Part shown: one piece after another, positions 1-20,659 of the stretch | Position numbering within the stretch: position 1 is the stretch's first letter | Layout of the letters: each line of letters begins with the position of its first letter | Virus record (IMG/VR): IMGVR_UViG_3300047510_002083 | Span: 1-20,659 of that record | Length of the DNA stretch: 20,659 nucleotides | DNA from: a virus | Reading direction: 5' to 3' (one strand) | Program-made: the position numbers and the translations under genes | The notes under the pieces: generated by a model | Told to the model about the DNA's origin: nothing | Database searches by the model: none | Seen by the model: only the letters and a program-made list of their open reading frames with translations

Positions 1-351
1 GTACCACTTGTACCTGATGAACCCGAACTACCAGAAGTTCCACTTGATCCTGACGTTCCATTTATACCTGAAGACCCTGATGTTCCCGATGAACCCGAAG
101 TACCACTAGACCCTGAAGTACCACTTGTACCTGATGAACCCGAACTACCAGAAGTTCCACTTGATCCTGACGTTCCATTTATACCTGAAGACCCTGATGT
201 TCCCGATGAACCCGAAGTACCACTAGACCCTGAAGTACCACTTGTACCTGATGAACCCGAACTACCAGAAGTTCCACTTGATCCTGACGTTCCATTTATA
301 CCTGAAGACCCTGATGTTCCCGATGAACCCGAAGTACCACTAGACCCTGAA
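1..351. repeat. three perfect 117-bp tandem repeats
   Basis: Copies 1-117, 118-234 and 235-351 are identical by eye. Each encodes 39 residues, or 13 Gly-X-Y triplets, of the collagen-like protein. The array touches the left edge, so the copy number is unknown. Related but diverged modules continue to about 1580; for example the units near 590-720 and 720-810 share long identical stretches. Perfect identity in one part and divergence elsewhere suggests recent unequal recombination or an assembly effect. Confidence 0.9.
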
Positions 352-1700
352 GTACCACTTGACCCGGAGGTACCATTTGTACCTGAAGATCCTGAACTAC
401 CTGAAGTACCACTTGACCCTGATGTACCATTTATTCCAGAAGAACCTGAACTACCTGATGTACCAGAAGAACCTGATGTACCAGATGTTCCCGAAGAACC
501 AGAACTTCCACTTGTACCAGATGAACCTGAAGTACCATTAACTCCTGAAGAACCGCTGGATCCTGAAGTTCCAGAAGAACCTGAACTACCTGATGTACCA
601 CTCGATCCCGAAGTTCCGTTTGTACCTGACGAACCTGAACTACCAGAAGTTCCACTTGACCCTGACGTTCCATTTATACCTGAAGATCCCGAAGAACCTG
701 ATGTTCCTGATGAACCTGAACTACCTGATGTACCACTCGATCCCGAAGTTCCGTTTGTACCTGACGAACCTGAACTACCAGAAGTTCCACTTGATCCTGA
801 CGTTCCATTTATACCTGAAGAACCACTTGATCCTGATGTTCCAGACGAACCTGAAGTTCCACTCACACCTGATGAACCACTTGACCCCGAAGTACCGCTT
901 ACTCCTGAACTACCACTTGAACCAGAAGTTCCATTTATACCTGAAGAACCACTTGATCCTGATGTTCCAGACGATCCTGAAGTTCCACTCACACCTGATG
1001 AACCACTTGACCCTGAAGTACCACTCGATCCTGAACTTCCACTTGAACCTGACGTTCCATTTGTTCCTGAAGATCCACTGCTACCTGACGTTCCATTAAC
1101 ACCCGAAGACCCGCTACTTCCAGATGTCCCTGATGTACCAGAAGAACCAGAGCTACCTGAACTACCACTTGAACCTGACGTTCCGTTTGTTCCTGATGAA
1201 CCACTACTACCTGAAGTTCCATTCACCCCCGATGAACCACTTGACCCAGAAGTTCCATTGACACCAGAAGATCCCGAACTTCCAGAAGAACCAGAACTAC
1301 CCGAAGTTCCGTTTGTACCTGACGAACCTGAGGTACCGTTAGTACCCGAAGAACCAGAACTTCCGCTAGTTCCATTTACACCTGAAGATCCTGAAGTTCC
1401 ATTCACACCAGAAGAACCAGATGTTCCCGAAGAACCTGATGATCCAGAAGTACCACTTGACCCTGAAGAACCACTCGAACCTGATGGTCCATTGGTACCA
1501 TTCATACCTGAAGATCCTGAAGTACCTGATGAACCTGAAGATCCTGAAGACCCTGAAGTACCAGAAGATCCTGAAGTACCAAGAAGATCTTGTACCTGAG
1601 CTTTAAAAGTTTGAGTTTCAGTGTCGTTGTTAACTACAACCCATGCTCCAGGAACAGATCCTGTGAAATTAGGTAATTGTGAGATTTTTTTGTTTGCCAT
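1..1700 (-). CDS. collagen-like (Gly-X-Y) fibre protein, 3' end outside window
   Basis: The frame opens with ATG at 1700 and stays open to the left edge, giving 566 complete codons with no stop. About 40 non-repetitive residues come first (MANKKISQLPNFTGSVPGAW and onward, up to VQDLL). Then follows an uninterrupted collagen-like array in which every third residue is Gly: GTS, GSS, GTN, GVN, GMN, GPS. The X and Y positions are mostly Ser, Thr and Asn with almost no Pro, so a bacterial or phage collagen-type triple helix without hydroxyproline is expected. Such arrays form elongated trimeric shafts in phage tail fibres or head decorations. A globular C-terminal tip would lie beyond position 1. 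The last three modules in the window (1-351) are perfect 117-bp repeats. The gene begins 7 nt after the preceding small gene, so the two are probably co-transcribed. Proline-rich plus-strand frames here are antisense shadows. The assignment to tail or capsid is inference. Confidence 0.85.
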   Translation of the reverse strand, partial: MANKKISQLPNFTGSVPGAWVVVNNDTETQTFKAQVQDLLGTSGSSGTSGSSGSSGSSGTSGSSGMNGTNGPSGSSGSSGSSGTSGSSGSSGTSGSSGVNGTSGSSGVNGTSGSSGSSGTNGTSGSSGTNGTSGSSGSSGSSGSSGVNGTSGSSGSSGVNGTSGSSGSSGTNGTSGSSGSSGSSGSSGTSGTSGSSGSSGVNGTSGSSGSSGTNGTSGSSGSSGSSGTSGSSGSSGVSGTSGSSGTSGSSGSSGINGTSGSSGSSGVSGTSGSSGSSGVSGTSGSSGTSGSSGSSGINGTSGSSGTSGSSGSSGTNGTSGSSGTSGSSGSSGTSGSSGSSGINGTSGSSGTSGSSGSSGTNGTSGSSGTSGSSGSSGTSGSSGSSGVNGTSGSSGTSGSSGSSGTSGTSGSSGTSGSSGSSGINGTSGSSGTSGSSGSSGTNGTSGSSGTSGSSGTSGSSGTSGSSGINGTSGSSGTSGSSGSSGTSGTSGSSGTSGSSGTSGSSGINGTSGSSGTSGSSGSSGTSGTSGSSGTSGSSGTSGSSGINGTSGSSGTSGSSGSSGTSG

Positions 1701-16160: not shown

Positions 16161-16913
16161 TTATTCTATTTCTTGATTTTCCAAGGATAATTTTTTGTCC
16201 ATCAAACTGTTCTTAAATTTGAATAGTTTGTCAATATACCCTGAACGTCTAAGGAATTTGAATACCAAGTTTTCGTATGAATACTCTCCTTTTTCTTCCA
16301 ACCCTGCAGTTCTATACTTTTTGAGTTGGTCTTTGAATTTCTCAATTTTATCAAGGGCTTTATCCAAGTCCTCATCTGTTACTTCTTCAATCAATGAGTC
16401 AATTTTACTCATTACACTTTTGGCTTTCTTTTCAAGGAAACTTTTGTCAATTTTGACATCTTCCATTTTTGGTTTTTCAACCCATTCGTCAAACAAGACT
16501 GAATACACTCCCGTTGAGTGGTGAGCCTCGTTTACATCTTCAGCGTACAACTCAACATCGAAACCCTTTACGGTAATTTTATGTGTTGTATTGAACAAAG
16601 TTTTTTTAAGGTTGAATAACTCTTTATAAACTTCTTGGTCCTCACCATCAAATTGTGAGAAGTCCACAAGTAAATGAAGGTCAATATCTGAGAACTTGGA
16701 CCAGTTGTAGTTTGCCAATGATCCCGTAAATCTCACATCGTCAATAAACAAATCTTCACCCAAGAAATCCATGAATTCACCAGCAATTGTCAAAAGAGCC
16801 TTTCTAATTCCTGGTTTGAGAACTGCATCTTCAGTATTATATCCATTCCAAATCTCAGGGTTTAAAGTATCCTGAGTTCCAAACGATACCAATATATCAG
16901 AGTATTTGTCCAT
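16161..16913 (-). CDS. nucleotidyltransferase-fold (pol beta superfamily) protein
   Basis: A 250-residue protein. The pol-beta-type nucleotidyltransferase signature is clear: VRFTGSLANYNWSKFSDIDL gives Gly64-Ser65, then Asp76 and Asp78 (GS-x10-DxD). A third acidic strand, FDVELYAED, supplies Asp119 or Glu121. These are the metal-binding residues of the superfamily, so an active NMP- or AMP-type transfer is possible. Residues about 150-230 are helical and charged (KKAKSVMSKIDSLIEEVTDE; LDKALDKIEKFKDQLKKYRT) and may bind a partner. Substrate and partner are unknown. The known range of such phage proteins (tRNA-type, antibiotic-type, toxin-type MNT) cannot be narrowed by eye. It has a TATTTATA box only 4 nt before its ATG and sits between the KTSC gene and the late operon. 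Confidence 0.8.
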   Translation of the reverse strand: MDKYSDILVSFGTQDTLNPEIWNGYNTEDAVLKPGIRKALLTIAGEFMDFLGEDLFIDDVRFTGSLANYNWSKFSDIDLHLLVDFSQFDGEDQEVYKELFNLKKTLFNTTHKITVKGFDVELYAEDVNEAHHSTGVYSVLFDEWVEKPKMEDVKIDKSFLEKKAKSVMSKIDSLIEEVTDEDLDKALDKIEKFKDQLKKYRTAGLEEKGEYSYENLVFKFLRRSGYIDKLFKFKNSLMDKKLSLENQEIE

Positions 16914-16937: not shown

Positions 16938-17183
16938 TTAAGGGAGTTTGTTGAACTTATATGATTTGGAAATCTTGGTTGTGAAGTATTTTCCTTGTGA
17001 TTCTGCCAATCTGAATTCAGCATATACCGTATGTGGTACTCCCTCGTATTCATAACGAGATCCGTTTTTAAACTCGGCAATCATCTTTTTAGTTGCCGTA
17101 TCATATTCTGTTTTGTTCAAATTTGACGAATCAATCTCGTTGATAATTCTTGTTCCGTCGATTGTTTGTGATTTTACAGCCAT
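16938..17183 (-). CDS. KTSC domain protein
   Basis: An 81-residue protein covering one KTSC domain (named for lysyl-tRNA synthetase C-terminal association). It shows the family pattern: EIDSSNLNKTEYDTATKKMI, then AEFKNGSRYEYEGVPHTVYA, then FRLAESQGKYFTTKISKSYK. The fold is a small beta-rich module of unknown biochemical role, common in phages and in bacteria. The start was placed at the ATG at 17183 (MAVKSQTIDGT), one base after the TAA of the gene before. A longer start at 17207 (MMTKPLCN) would overlap that gene by 23 bp and adds residues outside the domain. Confidence 0.87.
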   Translation of the reverse strand: MAVKSQTIDGTRIINEIDSSNLNKTEYDTATKKMIAEFKNGSRYEYEGVPHTVYAEFRLAESQGKYFTTKISKSYKFNKLP

Positions 17184-17184
17184 A

Positions 17185-17481
17185 TTACAAAGGGGTTTTG
17201 TCATCAATTCTACCTAGTAATTCTGAAAAGTAATCATCAAATTCATTTCCTTGGTTTTCAATAAGACCAAACCTACGAGCCTCACTTTTTAATTTTTGTA
17301 GGTCATATATAATCTCCTCTCGTTTGATATACATTTCTCGTGTCATTCCTTCACCCTTTTGAAGTTGACGGTCTTTTACTCCACTATCAATAAACATCTT
17401 TCTCAATTTGATGTATCCACGGAGGATATTGAGTACATCCGATTTTTTTAATTCTATAAATCTTTTGAGATGTGGTGTCAT
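17185..17481 (-). CDS. unknown 98-residue helical protein
   Basis: Starts at ATG 17481 (MTPHLKRFIELKKSDVLNIL). A TTG further upstream would run through the promoter-like box and terminator and is unlikely. The protein is basic and fully helical, with probable coiled-coil stretches (IKLRKMFIDSGVKDRQLQKG; EEIIYDLQKLKSEARRFGL) and an acidic C-terminal end (EFDDYFSELLGRIDDKTPL). It has no Cys. No family is recognised. It is the first gene of the unit that continues into the KTSC gene, with a 1-nt gap, and it has a TATTTATA box 4 nt before its start, just after a terminator. Confidence 0.72.
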   Translation of the reverse strand: MTPHLKRFIELKKSDVLNILRGYIKLRKMFIDSGVKDRQLQKGEGMTREMYIKREEIIYDLQKLKSEARRFGLIENQGNEFDDYFSELLGRIDDKTPL

Positions 17482-17497: not shown

Positions 17498-17522
17498 AAA
17501 CCCCCACTTTTGATGGGGGTTT
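17498..17522. terminator. terminator hairpin after the beta-barrel gene
   Basis: The stem AAACCCCCA / TGGGGGTTT (9 bp) closes a 7-nt loop. The T-rich run is moderate on the minus side (TTTGTTGTATTT) and good on the plus side (TTTTGTTTT), so it may work in both directions. It starts 5 nt beyond the beta-barrel stop. The 21-nt core, loop included, is the same as at 18386-18408. Confidence 0.8.
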
Positions 17523-17526
17523 TGTT

Positions 17527-18291
17527 TTACAGATACATTGCAAATGTTATGGTTGGTAAAATCAGTCGTTCCCAATACGAGTAAGTTCCCACTACCGTGT
17601 TGTAATCATAAACTTCATACCCACCCAAATTAGGGTCTTGAGTGTCAACAATACCATCCCAATTTAAGTCATAACCCAAGAACTTATATTCATCATAGGT
17701 ATATCTTTGAGAGAAGTTCGCAAATCCAAAGTTCCAATATCTTCTATCACGATTTGTGTATATTCTAAAATTGGGGGTGATTATTGCCGTCTCTGTTGAT
17801 GGTAGGTACCAAGCCTCATAGACAAAACCAATTCTACTTCCCATCTTGTGATATCCACCAATGTTCAATGCAGTTCCATTGAGTTCAATATCATCACTGT
17901 TAAAACTTGAATATCCTACACCCAAACTAAATTGGTTGTCAGGAGTTCCATATGTTCCAACCGCAAAAGGTAGAAGGAAAGTTCCACGACCAACTGTTGG
18001 TACACCTGCAAGTAATCCTGTCTTTACGAATAGTTTGTCACTAACTTGTGTGTGGTATGAAGCGGTTCCGTAGACACCCAAAAACAAGGGGGTTCCAACT
18101 CCAACTGAAACCTTATCAGTGATTCCATATTGGAAGTCGATTAGTGGACCCACGACATTTAGGTATGCACTGTCCTTTTCAATACCAAACCCTGATGGTG
18201 AAAAAACATATCTACTGGCGTGACCATTAGATGTTTGAGCGGATGTCAAAAACGACATCATAATTCCGAAAATAAATAATAGTTTTTTCAT
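17527..18291 (-). CDS. secreted beta-barrel outer-membrane-like protein with an EF-hand-like loop
   Basis: A 254-residue protein with a classic Sec signal peptide (MKKLLFIFGIMMSFLTSAQT, cleavage near residue 19). About 200 residues of alternating beta strands follow, rich in Gly, Tyr and Phe (DKVSVGVGTPLFLGVYGTAS; NQFSLGVGYSSFNSDDIELN; SRIGFVYEAWYLPSTETA). This is the look of a small outer-membrane barrel of Bacteroidota. Residues 208-219 read DLNWDGIVDTQD, an EF-hand or dockerin-type calcium loop (DxNxDGxxDxxD) set between late strands. The gene is a single-gene unit between two near-identical terminators, with a TATTTATT variant box 14 nt upstream. A phage-made outer-membrane protein could block superinfection, change surface properties or help lysis. 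Which of these applies cannot be told from sequence. A captured host gene is equally possible. Confidence 0.8.
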   Translation of the reverse strand: MKKLLFIFGIMMSFLTSAQTSNGHASRYVFSPSGFGIEKDSAYLNVVGPLIDFQYGITDKVSVGVGTPLFLGVYGTASYHTQVSDKLFVKTGLLAGVPTVGRGTFLLPFAVGTYGTPDNQFSLGVGYSSFNSDDIELNGTALNIGGYHKMGSRIGFVYEAWYLPSTETAIITPNFRIYTNRDRRYWNFGFANFSQRYTYDEYKFLGYDLNWDGIVDTQDPNLGGYEVYDYNTVVGTYSYWERLILPTITFAMYL

Positions 18292-18313: not shown

Positions 18314-18385
18314 AGGTGGAAATTCCAAATAAAAAGTTGATTACGGATTATTACCAAAACCAATATTATTTTTACGGAAAAATAA

Positions 18386-18408
18386 AACCCCCACTTTTGA
18401 TGGGGGTT
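18386..18408 (-). terminator. terminator closing the RNA-repair-like operon
   Basis: The stem AACCCCCA / TGGGGGTT (8 bp) closes a 7-nt loop and is followed on the minus strand by TTATTTTT. It begins 6 nt beyond the stop of the last operon gene. Confidence 0.88.
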
Positions 18409-18414
18409 CTTTGT

Positions 18415-19011
18415 TTAGTCCAAACTATTTGGTAGATATAGTAGTGTTGGGTTCTTTTTTTGGATATCTAATTCCGGATATTTTTTTTGAAACTCCATCA
18501 CGTCAAATCGTTTGGTAATCAAGTGGCACCCACTTTTGGTTGGGATCGCCGCTTCAATCTTCGGACCTTCAGGTCTAATACTGTTGATGAATTCCCAAAC
18601 TTCACCAACGAAACCATGGTCCTGTACATCAATATCCACAATCCACCGTTTCTCATAAGTCTTGAGTTGACCAACCACACTATCAAAGACGTGTTGTTGG
18701 TTGATCTGACCAGACTGAATTCTCTTTACAATCTGAGGGATCATCTCCAAAGCAACGTCTTTGTGATTTTGTTTTTGGATATGGATGTACGCACGGGATT
18801 TGAACATCTCACACAATTGGATGATCTCATCGTATCGTTTTTCCAAATACTCAATGGAATTGACACAATAGGTTTTTATGGTTCTTACAGACTGGTGATT
18901 TGCCTTGTCTGTTGTCTGATCTTTTTTTCGTTTGAAAACGTAGAGCATGTAAAAGTCACCCTCGTTCTCAAAGTTCAAAAGTGGTTTGATTAGTTCTAAA
19001 TTGTTGATCAT
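18415..19011 (-). CDS. protein with primase-polymerase (AEP)-like motifs, last gene of the RNA-repair-like operon
   Basis: A 198-residue protein without a firm family. Two short motifs stand out: a hydrophobic strand ending in an acidic pair, KRWIVDIDVQD with Asp126 and Asp128, and PTKSGCHLITKRFD with Ser160 and His163. A hhhDhD motif followed some 35 residues later by sxH is the core pattern of archaeo-eukaryotic primase-type catalytic sites. Asp170 or the downstream LDIQKKNPTLLYLP strand might supply the third acidic position. The N-terminal region carries a basic strand (SRAYIHIQKQNHKD) where such proteins bind nucleotide or template. It overlaps the kinase gene by 4 bp (ATGA) and is followed by a terminator, so it is made with the RNA end-processing enzymes. 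A role in nucleotide addition at broken RNA or DNA ends is inference. It could instead be an inactive relative. Confidence 0.7.
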   Translation of the reverse strand: MINNLELIKPLLNFENEGDFYMLYVFKRKKDQTTDKANHQSVRTIKTYCVNSIEYLEKRYDEIIQLCEMFKSRAYIHIQKQNHKDVALEMIPQIVKRIQSGQINQQHVFDSVVGQLKTYEKRWIVDIDVQDHGFVGEVWEFINSIRPEGPKIEAAIPTKSGCHLITKRFDVMEFQKKYPELDIQKKNPTLLYLPNSLD

Positions 19012-19391
19012 AACTTTACTTCAAATCTGTTTTTCATCTGTTCTAACTTATCTTCAGGTACTCCATGTTCGTTGATACCACCATGGCGGTTCTCAACAAT
19101 CAAAGAGTGAACTCGATAACCATAGTTTTTAGCAAGATCAAAGTATGGTTTCATTTCCCATTCTTGTGTGAAGGTATTGGATACAACAAGTTTTGGTTCT
19201 TCGTTAATCATCAAACCACCTACACTTGAACGACACCATTCATGAGCTTCCTTCAATTTAGTTACATCAAAATTATATTCACCGTCTCTAACAAAATACA
19301 TGTCGGCCTCAAAGTGCTTTCCACCCAATGATTTTGCTAATGTTGATTTACCACTTCCTGGTAATCCTCGCAGTAAAATAAGTTCTTTCAT
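19008..19391 (-). CDS. small P-loop kinase, polynucleotide-kinase-like (N4BP2/AAA_33 type)
   Basis: A 127-residue protein with a perfect Walker A at residues 9-17 (GLPGSGKST). Asp30 in FEADMYF corresponds to the general base of T4 polynucleotide kinase (Asp35). A Walker-B-like strand and DTN-type motif follow as KLVVSNTFTQEWEMKPYFDL, then AKNYGYRVHSLIVENRHGG and a lid with HGVPEDKLEQMKNRFE. This order is typical of the N4BP2-like polynucleotide 5'-kinases. It has only the kinase domain and lacks the HAD phosphatase domain of T4 PseT (301 residues). The 4-bp ATGA overlaps with the phosphoesterase gene upstream and the primase-like gene downstream imply co-production. Predicted role: adding 5'-phosphate to broken RNA ends for the ligase. 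A small-molecule kinase remains possible. Confidence 0.8.
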   Translation of the reverse strand: MKELILLRGLPGSGKSTLAKSLGGKHFEADMYFVRDGEYNFDVTKLKEAHEWCRSSVGGLMINEEPKLVVSNTFTQEWEMKPYFDLAKNYGYRVHSLIVENRHGGINEHGVPEDKLEQMKNRFEVKL

Positions 19392-20041
19392 GGTAAAATT
19401 CGTTTTTCGTGGTGATCTTTAGGTAAAGTGAGTTTTCGGTAAGGACGATCCTTCATAATGTTACGAATCTCCTCAAGGGAAATTGGGTACAAGTCGTTTC
19501 CGTCCACACCAACATCCATCGCACGTCCCTCGTTGATACGAAGGTTGGGTGGGAGGTGAACGTGTCCGTGAAGATGGACTACACCATCGTTCATTCCGTC
19601 CCACGAGGCAATCGGGTAGTGCATACATACCATCGTATATTTCATAACTTCTTTACCTACGGGTTTACGGATGTCCAAGTGAAGGTAGTCCTGACAAGAT
19701 GAGAAGATATCTTGAATATCACCTTTGTTTCTACGGATGTGGTGGTCGTGGTTTCCAAAAGTCAGGTGAACGTTCTTACAAACAATCCGACTACGGAACT
19801 CAGCGATGGATTCAAAACCACCAAACGACCAGTCACCCAAGTGGACCAAGATATCATTTTCACCAACAATCTCGTTGATTCGGTTAACCAACGTATCGTT
19901 CATATGATCCAAGGACTTATAATCACGAGTGAGGTTATCAGCACCCACCCAATTGGTGGTGGCACGACAAATGTTCCCGTGGTTATAGTGAGTGTCTGAT
20001 GTGAAAAACAGACCTTGTCCTTTTTCTAATACGATTTTCAT
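19388..20041 (-). CDS. calcineurin-like metallophosphoesterase
   Basis: A 217-residue protein with the complete two-metal site of the family: Asp16 and His18 in FTSDTHYNHGN, Asp70 in VHLGDWSFGG, Asn97-His98 in TFGNHDHH, His141 in CMHYPIASW, and His160/His162 in HLHGHVHLPP. It is therefore probably active. Family substrates range from phosphoproteins to cyclic nucleotides and 2',3'-cyclic phosphate RNA ends. Here it stands between an RNA ligase gene and a polynucleotide-kinase-like gene, so repair of 3' ends (2',3'-cyclic phosphate or 3'-phosphate removal) is the favoured reading. This matches the central phosphatase domain of bacterial Pnkp. That function is inference. The start ATG is 21 nt after the ligase stop; its end overlaps the kinase start by 4 bp. 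Confidence 0.88.
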   Translation of the reverse strand: MKIVLEKGQGLFFTSDTHYNHGNICRATTNWVGADNLTRDYKSLDHMNDTLVNRINEIVGENDILVHLGDWSFGGFESIAEFRSRIVCKNVHLTFGNHDHHIRRNKGDIQDIFSSCQDYLHLDIRKPVGKEVMKYTMVCMHYPIASWDGMNDGVVHLHGHVHLPPNLRINEGRAMDVGVDGNDLYPISLEEIRNIMKDRPYRKLTLPKDHHEKRILP

Positions 20042-20045
20042 ACCA

Positions 20046-20053
20046 CAAAGATA
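20046..20053 (-). promoter_or_regulatory. possible host-type -7 box (TATCTTTG) before the phosphoesterase
   Basis: Coding-strand TATCTTTG fits the Bacteroidota -7 consensus TAnnTTTG and lies 4 nt before the ATG. No well-spaced TTG -33 element is seen, so this may be chance. Confidence 0.25.
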
Positions 20054-20062
20054 TAAAAAATA

Positions 20063-20659
20063 TTACAACTTACGAAACTCAGGTTTGATTAATTTCCAAA
20101 TGTTTGGAGAAATATCCTTCCCATCCAACAAACCAAACAACAATGAAGGGTATGTATATTCTTTGGCTAAACGAGCAAAAGTACCCCTATCACCACCATA
20201 CTCTTGGACTTTGATTTGGATGTATTTGAATAAATTATAGTAGTCGGTATCGATAAGTTGAAATCGAGACTTGAGTTCATCTTCATACTCCTTGATTTTG
20301 TTGTAAAACTCATCAGGAACATCCTTCAGAAGTTCATCCATACTCTCACCGTTAGATAGAACCTCCCACACCGCAGTGGTAGATAGATTGGTCATAACCT
20401 TATGAAGACGAACGTATTCCTCACCTTTGATTTTCATACGATCACCGTTAGAGAAACGAACAACAAATCCTTCAGCATTGTTCTCAATCATACCCTTCAA
20501 AGTATTGTAGTCAGAAATACCATCGTATTTTTTTACCACATTGAAGACACTATTGGCGTAGTAATCCAAATCCAACTCGTCACCATTTTCAGTGTTTATC
20601 TCACCCAACATTACAACATCTTCAGTGTCACCATAATTCACAACAATACGATTCTCAGG
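20063..20659 (-). CDS. rnlA: RNA ligase, T4 Rnl1-like, C-terminal part only
   Basis: The frame is open to the right edge (first complete codons read PENRIVVNYGD), so 198 C-terminal residues are present and the N-terminal part with the catalytic lysine (motif I) is outside. PENRIV resembles the PTNRIV segment of T4 Rnl1 that precedes motif IIIa-type strands. Motif IV is EGFVVRFSNGD and motif V is RMKIKGEEYVRLHK, like the KIKxxxYVxLH of Rnl1. The remaining about 120 residues are helical (EVLSNGESMDELLKDVPDEF; LFKYIQIKVQEYGGDRGTFA) and fit the Rnl1 C-terminal helical domain that recognises the tRNA anticodon region. A GTG at 20641 is an internal codon, not the start. In T4, Rnl1 with PseT repairs tRNA cut by host anticodon nuclease; the neighbours here suggest the same kind of job. 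Confidence 0.9.
   Translation of the reverse strand, partial: PENRIVVNYGDTEDVVMLGEINTENGDELDLDYYANSVFNVVKKYDGISDYNTLKGMIENNAEGFVVRFSNGDRMKIKGEEYVRLHKVMTNLSTTAVWEVLSNGESMDELLKDVPDEFYNKIKEYEDELKSRFQLIDTDYYNLFKYIQIKVQEYGGDRGTFARLAKEYTYPSLLFGLLDGKDISPNIWKLIKPEFRKL

Follow-up and report, generated by a model that had tools for sequence, protein, structure and literature searches.

A ligase, a phosphoesterase, a kinase and an AEP-like protein form a probable RNA-mending operon in a T4-like phage

Introduction

At the right end of the virus contig IMGVR_UViG_3300047510_002083, which is taken whole as the window of this study (20,659 bases), four genes follow one another on the minus strand in the order RNA ligase, phosphoesterase, kinase and a 198-residue protein that resembles the archaeo-eukaryotic primases (AEP-like protein). 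The minus strand also carries a T4-like head module comprising terminase, portal, prohead protease and major capsid protein genes, and the virus probably infects Bacteroidota bacteria. Which broken molecules would such a set of enzymes act on, and what would a primase-like protein do beside an RNA ligase? The four genes had earlier been taken for a split form of bacterial Pnkp that restores cut RNAs (the original prediction). We consider it probable, at about 0.65, that the operon mends RNA, probably tRNA, cut by host defence nucleases, and that the AEP-like protein adds nucleotides in the process. The observations underlying this reading are the identities of three enzymes, their intact active-site residues, the linkage of the genes on one strand, and the motifs, topology and neighbourhood of the AEP-like protein.

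Results

The ligase gene (20063-20659, minus strand) is open at the contig end, and its product matches PHROG 562, the T4 RnlA family (4e-28), and TIGR02308 (5e-7). Because the contig end cuts off the N-terminal half and leaves 198 C-terminal residues in the window, the adenylylation motif KxDG lies outside it. In a sister contig (L005), which encodes the other three proteins with 100% identity to those of the window, the ligase is full length at 343 residues, with the KxDG motif present. This copy matches PHROG 562 at 1.6e-66 and PF09511 at 2.4e-16, over the family cut-off, and T4 RNA ligase 1 among solved structures at 5e-16. Across the L005 copy and 19 relatives, K89xDG (D91-G92), E142, E208-G209, K221 and K223 are all invariant or almost invariant. 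The full copy therefore shows KxDG, the downstream nucleotidyltransferase motifs and the significant family match by which the T4 Rnl1 family is recognised. The assignment of an Rnl1-type ligase to the window holds as to family, from the T4 Rnl1 matches, and is to be read there as one of a C-terminal fragment with its KxDG beyond the contig.

The second gene (19388-20041, minus strand) encodes a phosphoesterase of 217 residues that matches PF00149 over the cut-off and PHROG 547 at 1e-40. The metal ligands of the calcineurin-like superfamily (DxH, GD, GNHD, H and GHxH) are invariant in 22 sequences, and the protein is complete, as had been predicted. Its nearest solved sequence is aq_1665 (1xm7; profile match 9e-9), and not Pnkp. 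The kinase (19008-19391, minus strand; 127 residues) matches AAA_33 (4e-11), PHROG 2071 (5e-40) and the polynucleotide kinase (PNK) family phrog_505 (4e-7). When its profile was compared with solved structures, T4 PNK was the best match (E 7e-5, residues 1-123), and further matches after it included seryl-tRNA(Sec) kinase and bacterial Pnkp kinases. Conserved residues comprise GxPGxGKS, D30, N72-T73, R102 and R122; by analogy with T4 PNK, D30 would be the catalytic Asp, and the lid Arg would be found among R102 and R122. The protein thus contains the 5'-kinase P-loop domain of T4 PNK (PseT). A C-terminal HAD 3'-phosphatase domain was not found in the 127 residues, and relatives have 126-170 residues, truncated copies aside, which bears out the description of a kinase-only protein.

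The fourth gene (18415-19011, minus strand) encodes the AEP-like protein, which falls into PHROG 14949, a family of unknown function, and matched nothing in Pfam. Three motifs occur in order: I, D126xD128 (IVDID, 124-128); II, G161-x-H163; and III, L181-D182. They agree with the motif set of the AEP superfamily, namely hhhDhD/E, sxH and hD/E (PMC5862659). In 45 diverse sequences of the family, N4, R28, K30, R73, D126, D128, G161 and H163 are invariant, and position 182, where it is present, is always D or E. An AlphaFold2 model of the protein (predicted local distance difference test score 88.9) contains an RRM-like β-α-β-β-α-β unit, with the motifs at strand ends. Since profile homology to known AEPs stays below significance, we file the protein as AEP-like and not as AEP; the homology is statistically unproven, and the label rests on motifs and topology. 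The original prediction of an AEP-motif protein is upheld as to the motifs; searches with Pfam and with AEP profiles gave no significant match.

Confident matches of the AEP-like protein in the viral library were to uncharacterised or unnamed phage proteins only. Among cultured or deposited phages, the family occurs in Cellulophaga, Tenacibaculum, Prevotella Lak and crAss-like phages and in a few gut phage records. Outside the phages of Bacteroidota, the family profile detected the Campylobacter phage protein CP21_052 at 2e-15 (locus L362, 6491-7231). It keeps the invariant motif residues and adjoins a putative N6-adenosine methyltransferase; an Rnl1-like ligase match in CP21 lies elsewhere in the genome, split into two overlapping reading frames. 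The family phrog_8839 had been considered as a bridge to the Campylobacter phages, wrongly; CP21_052 is found by the AEP-like profile itself. Matches in the Lactococcus 949 group were too weak to use, and scans with the AEP-like copy of phage phi17:2 and with the Prim-Pol of phi17:2 found almost nothing. A scan of cellular genomes gave a single locus, in a contig from a Bacteroidetes bin with phage-like genes. We also considered the AEP-like protein as the replicative primase of the phage, and judged this unlikely from its size, its neighbours and the coexistence of a family member with a Prim-Pol in phi17:2; the phage's own primase lies outside the contig.

We then asked how the four genes are placed relative to one another in other phages. 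For each gene we collected relatives from IMG/VR, and we computed their neighbourhoods with near-duplicates (90%) removed. Of 39 distinct loci, 26 had the phosphoesterase and 24 the kinase within 6 kb of the ligase. Long contigs were also searched whole, and the number of pairs less than 3 kb apart was compared with that expected from random placement; these contigs were chosen for holding at least one of the genes, and shared ancestry means that the counts are not independent events. Kinase and phosphoesterase were this close in 27 of 33 contigs holding both (1.3 expected), ligase and kinase in 16 of 25 (1.0 expected), and ligase and phosphoesterase in 12 of 23 (0.9 expected). For the AEP-like gene the figures were 8 of 16 with the kinase (0.6 expected) and 8 of 15 with the phosphoesterase (0.5 expected). 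The genes thus recur together in dozens of phages, as the original prediction led one to look for, and the phosphoesterase and kinase are not found mostly apart from the ligase.

Gene order varied among these loci and included ligase-phosphoesterase-kinase-AEP-like, phosphoesterase-kinase-AEP-like-ligase, AEP-like-phosphoesterase-kinase-ligase, AEP-like-ligase-phosphoesterase-kinase and more, always on one strand. Four-base-pair overlaps occur between different gene pairs. Because linkage stays while the orders are reshuffled, these observations argue for a kept functional tie among the genes, and because the four-gene arrangement recurs in many phages it is far beyond chance. Within the window, the four predicted reading frames are present on the minus strand, and the last three are joined by 4-bp ATGA stop-start overlaps between phosphoesterase and kinase (19388-19391) and between kinase and AEP-like gene (19008-19011); the plus strand reads TCAT at both. 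The predicted intrinsic terminator follows directly downstream of the AEP-like gene (18410-18384, minus strand; 11-bp stem, 5-nt loop and T-run; folding z = -2.95).

The company of the AEP-like gene was analysed in 46 distinct loci. At least one RNA-repair gene lay within 5 kb in 31 of them, whereas random segments drawn from these phages gave 2 of 38 (Fisher P = 1.6e-9). The choice of families favours this result, as four of those counted (HAD_SAK, a second RNA ligase, cREC and CCA) were picked for occurring near the AEP-like gene. For the families chosen beforehand, the kinase was found in 22, the phosphoesterase in 20 and the ligase in 12 of the 46 loci, against 1, 0 and 0 of the 38 segments. 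Genes for tRNA numbered 98 in 442 kb near the AEP-like loci and 14 in 403 kb of random segments. Neighbours identified by Pfam were cREC_REC, HAD_SAK_2 (Swiss Army Knife RNA repair), RNA_ligase PF09414 and a PolyA_pol/CCA enzyme. The most divergent relatives of the AEP-like gene lie alongside RNA ligase, CCA enzyme, PNK-HAD and phosphoesterase genes in a gut phage (L086), RlaP in a Lak phage, Pnk, Rnl1 and a nucleotidyltransferase in pT24, and a CCA enzyme in phi17:2. In four loci (L030, L032, L033 and L039), the AEP-like gene lies inside a cluster of 13-20 tRNA genes spanning about 5.6-10.6 kb.

RlaP is the usual ligase-associated nucleotidyltransferase and tracks RNA ligases in jumbo phages (PMC7824862). 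No match to RlaP (PF10127) was found in the window or in any of the 43 IMG/VR contigs tested. This leaves its slot open in these phages, and the AEP-like protein could fill it.

Several other features of the window adjoin the operon or lie beyond it. Two terminators of near-identical sequence (AACCCCCATCAAAAGTGGGGGTT), at 17498-17522 and 18384-18410, flank a gene at 17527-18291. The gene at 16161-16913 (minus strand) encodes a 250-residue protein of PHROG 36119 (function unknown), which contains the Pol-beta-like pattern GSLANYNWSKFSDIDLHLLVD followed by GFDVELYAED and has a weak nucleotidyltransferase match (PF01909, E 0.04). Lying beyond the terminator, it is possibly a second nucleotidyltransferase, judging by its sequence; within the first set of AEP-like loci, L005 is the only one that conserves it. 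A KTSC-domain protein is encoded at 16938-17207 (minus strand; PF13619, 4.7e-17), and this domain is among the translation-related functions of phages listed in PMC7824862. At the other end, adjoining the head genes, a reading frame at 3-1700 (minus strand) runs off the contig start and encodes a protein made almost entirely of SSGTSG/NGTSG-type repeats.

Discussion

Taken together, the enzyme families, their active sites and their linkage agree with the prediction that the set heals and seals RNA ends and may include an enzyme that adds nucleotides, and a tRNA substrate and host nucleases as the cause of damage are plausible. In the pathway that we propose, host defence nucleases would cut tRNAs or other RNAs and leave 2',3'-cyclic phosphate and 5'-OH ends. 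The calcineurin-type phosphoesterase would open the cyclic phosphate and remove the 3' phosphate, a specificity that we infer, along with the order of steps, and the small PNK-like kinase would phosphorylate the 5' end. The AEP-like protein may then restore the lost nucleotide or nucleotides at the 3'-OH, before the Rnl1 ligase joins the healed ends.

A number of points weigh against this reading. The roles of all four proteins are predictions from sequence, model and neighbourhood. The nearest solved relative of the phosphoesterase, aq_1665, is itself a hypothetical protein of unknown function, and the phosphoesterase has no specific kinship to the phosphatase of Pnkp. A repair gene was absent within 5 kb in 15 of the 46 AEP-like loci, 3 of 19 long contigs with an AEP-like gene had none of the other three genes, and the homologue in CP21 sits beside a methyltransferase, with the ligase elsewhere. 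Alignment of the AEP-like family with five phage Prim-Pols using hhalign paired motifs I and II at a non-significant E of 0.25. A Foldseek search of the PDB with the AEP-like model returned nothing significant and no AEP; this silence carries little weight, since the same search hardly recognised the well-known calcineurin fold: the phosphoesterase model, used as a control, also gave no match with E < 0.001.

That no profile or fold match to a solved AEP was significant speaks for the idea that the trio repairs RNA while the fourth protein is no polymerase; it might instead bind RNA, act as a regulator, or be a palm-domain relative that catalyses another reaction. This idea would also fit a protein of 198 residues without the helicase and C-terminal domains that phage AEPs usually have. 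We nevertheless hold it to be unlikely, since D126, D128, G161 and H163 are invariant and residue 182 is always acidic in a pattern fitting the AEP motifs, the motifs are modelled on strand ends of an RRM-like unit, and hhalign pairs motifs I and II with those of Prim-Pols. One member of the family also matches a phage primase family, at E 0.08 and across the motif I-II stretch only.

Two other explanations were weighed. PNK acts on DNA too, and the genes might be a phage analogue of LigD, with a polymerase, a phosphoesterase and a ligase working with PNK to mend DNA breaks or prepare genome ends. LigD combines these three activities, and its polymerase is an AEP domain (PMC5862659); weak NCBIfam matches of the phosphoesterase include the DNA-damage family PdeM. 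We regard this as improbable, given that the ligase is of Rnl1 type, an RNA and not a DNA ligase family, and that the AEP-like gene keeps company with tRNA- and RNA-repair genes and tRNA clusters. The least probable explanation, to which we give very little credence, is that the ligase serves mainly in tail-fibre attachment, as T4 gp63 also does, and that the phosphoesterase and kinase act on small nucleotides in signalling or NAD salvage. PHROG 562 indeed bears the double name of ligase and tail-fibre attachment protein, calcineurin-type enzymes have varied substrates, and salvage-type genes stand beside the trio in two phages described below. The structural neighbours in the window, however, are head genes beyond a terminator, and the healing-type enzymes stay near the ligase in shuffled orders across phages.

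The proposed pathway offers a testable function for a conserved phage family whose members occur in phages of Cellulophaga and Tenacibaculum, in Lak megaphages, and in one crAss-like and one Campylobacter phage. It also puts a name to a ligase-kinase-phosphoesterase unit that recurs in many genomes, where its genes have been annotated one by one. Nucleases of the RloC type excise a nucleotide as well as cut (PMC7824862). Should the AEP-like protein fill gaps in tRNA, it would show how phages survive such nucleases, and the AEP superfamily, beyond DNA priming and end joining, would also serve RNA repair in viruses of bacteria. More tentatively, and at somewhat less than an even chance, PHROG 14949 could be a new family of minimal stand-alone AEPs, a dedicated RNA-end (tRNA gap-filling) polymerase that replaces RlaP in a four-gene kit and, working in the manner of LigD plus PNK but on RNA, counters nucleases that both cut and remove nucleotides.

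Comparison with known systems shows where the phage set belongs. It shares with T4 an Rnl1-type ligase and a PNK-type kinase, and the T4 enzymes are the best solved relatives of both; unlike T4 PNK/PseT, the kinase lacks the HAD phosphatase, a separate calcineurin-type phosphoesterase takes the place of that domain, and the AEP-like protein is present in addition. With the bacterial Pnkp/Hen1 system it shares kinase, phosphatase and ligase activities by type, including a phosphatase of calcineurin type, whereas the phage genes are separate and the kinase and ligase are T4-like. In the Pnkp1-Rnl-Hen1 system, the Pnkp1 phosphatase is T4Pnkp-like and belongs to another superfamily than that of Pnkp (PMC4411300). 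Hen1 (PF12623) was found in none of 46 phage records, which are possibly incomplete, with one positive among controls, and no reading frame in the gathered loci matched two of the families. We therefore rejected descent from a split Pnkp: these records and loci show neither Hen1 nor fusion, the kinase and ligase are T4-like, and the phosphoesterase is nearest to aq_1665. What survives of the split-Pnkp prediction is the analogy of activities. A fused kinase-phosphoesterase-ligase family of phages (phrog_8238) matches all three window enzymes in that order, two of them weakly, including the phosphoesterase, and the likeness to Pnkp is thus one of parts and function.

The three-enzyme set is not peculiar to this phage. 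In Vibrio phage Ceto, Pseudomonas phage Amme-3 and Aeromonas phage phiA047, ligase, kinase and phosphoesterase genes of the same types lie together in a stretch of about 2.5 kb. They are annotated singly, as ATPase, phosphoesterase or hypothetical protein, and RNA ligase; unlike the window, these phages have no AEP-like gene among the annotated neighbours. In Amme-3 (L317, 507-6121) and Ceto (L319, 2256-7396), which are unrelated phages, the trio adjoins genes for ribose-phosphate pyrophosphokinase (PRPP synthetase) and nicotinamide phosphoribosyltransferase, and this shared placement hints that RNA repair and NAD salvage are connected.

Placement of a nucleotide-adding enzyme with an RNA ligase and PNK is also seen for RlaP and for RNA-repair AEP domains (PMC5862659, PMC7824862). 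According to PMC5862659, the divergent AEP domains described by Burroughs and Aravind (2016) belong to proteins, mainly from kinetoplastids, that are predicted to repair RNA. RlaP differs in having a Pol-beta fold, and the reported AEPs are domains of multidomain proteins, whereas PHROG 14949 is a small stand-alone phage protein. In LigD of bacterial non-homologous end joining, an AEP-type polymerase, a phosphoesterase and a ligase likewise act together on broken ends. LigD works on DNA, is fused, and uses a DNA ligase and a different phosphoesterase, so that the likeness is one of principle only. Since the ligase-kinase-phosphoesterase trio already occurs in cultured Vibrio, Pseudomonas and Aeromonas phages, it is a set of known kind; what is new, in the literature covered here, is its stand-alone AEP-like partner in phages.

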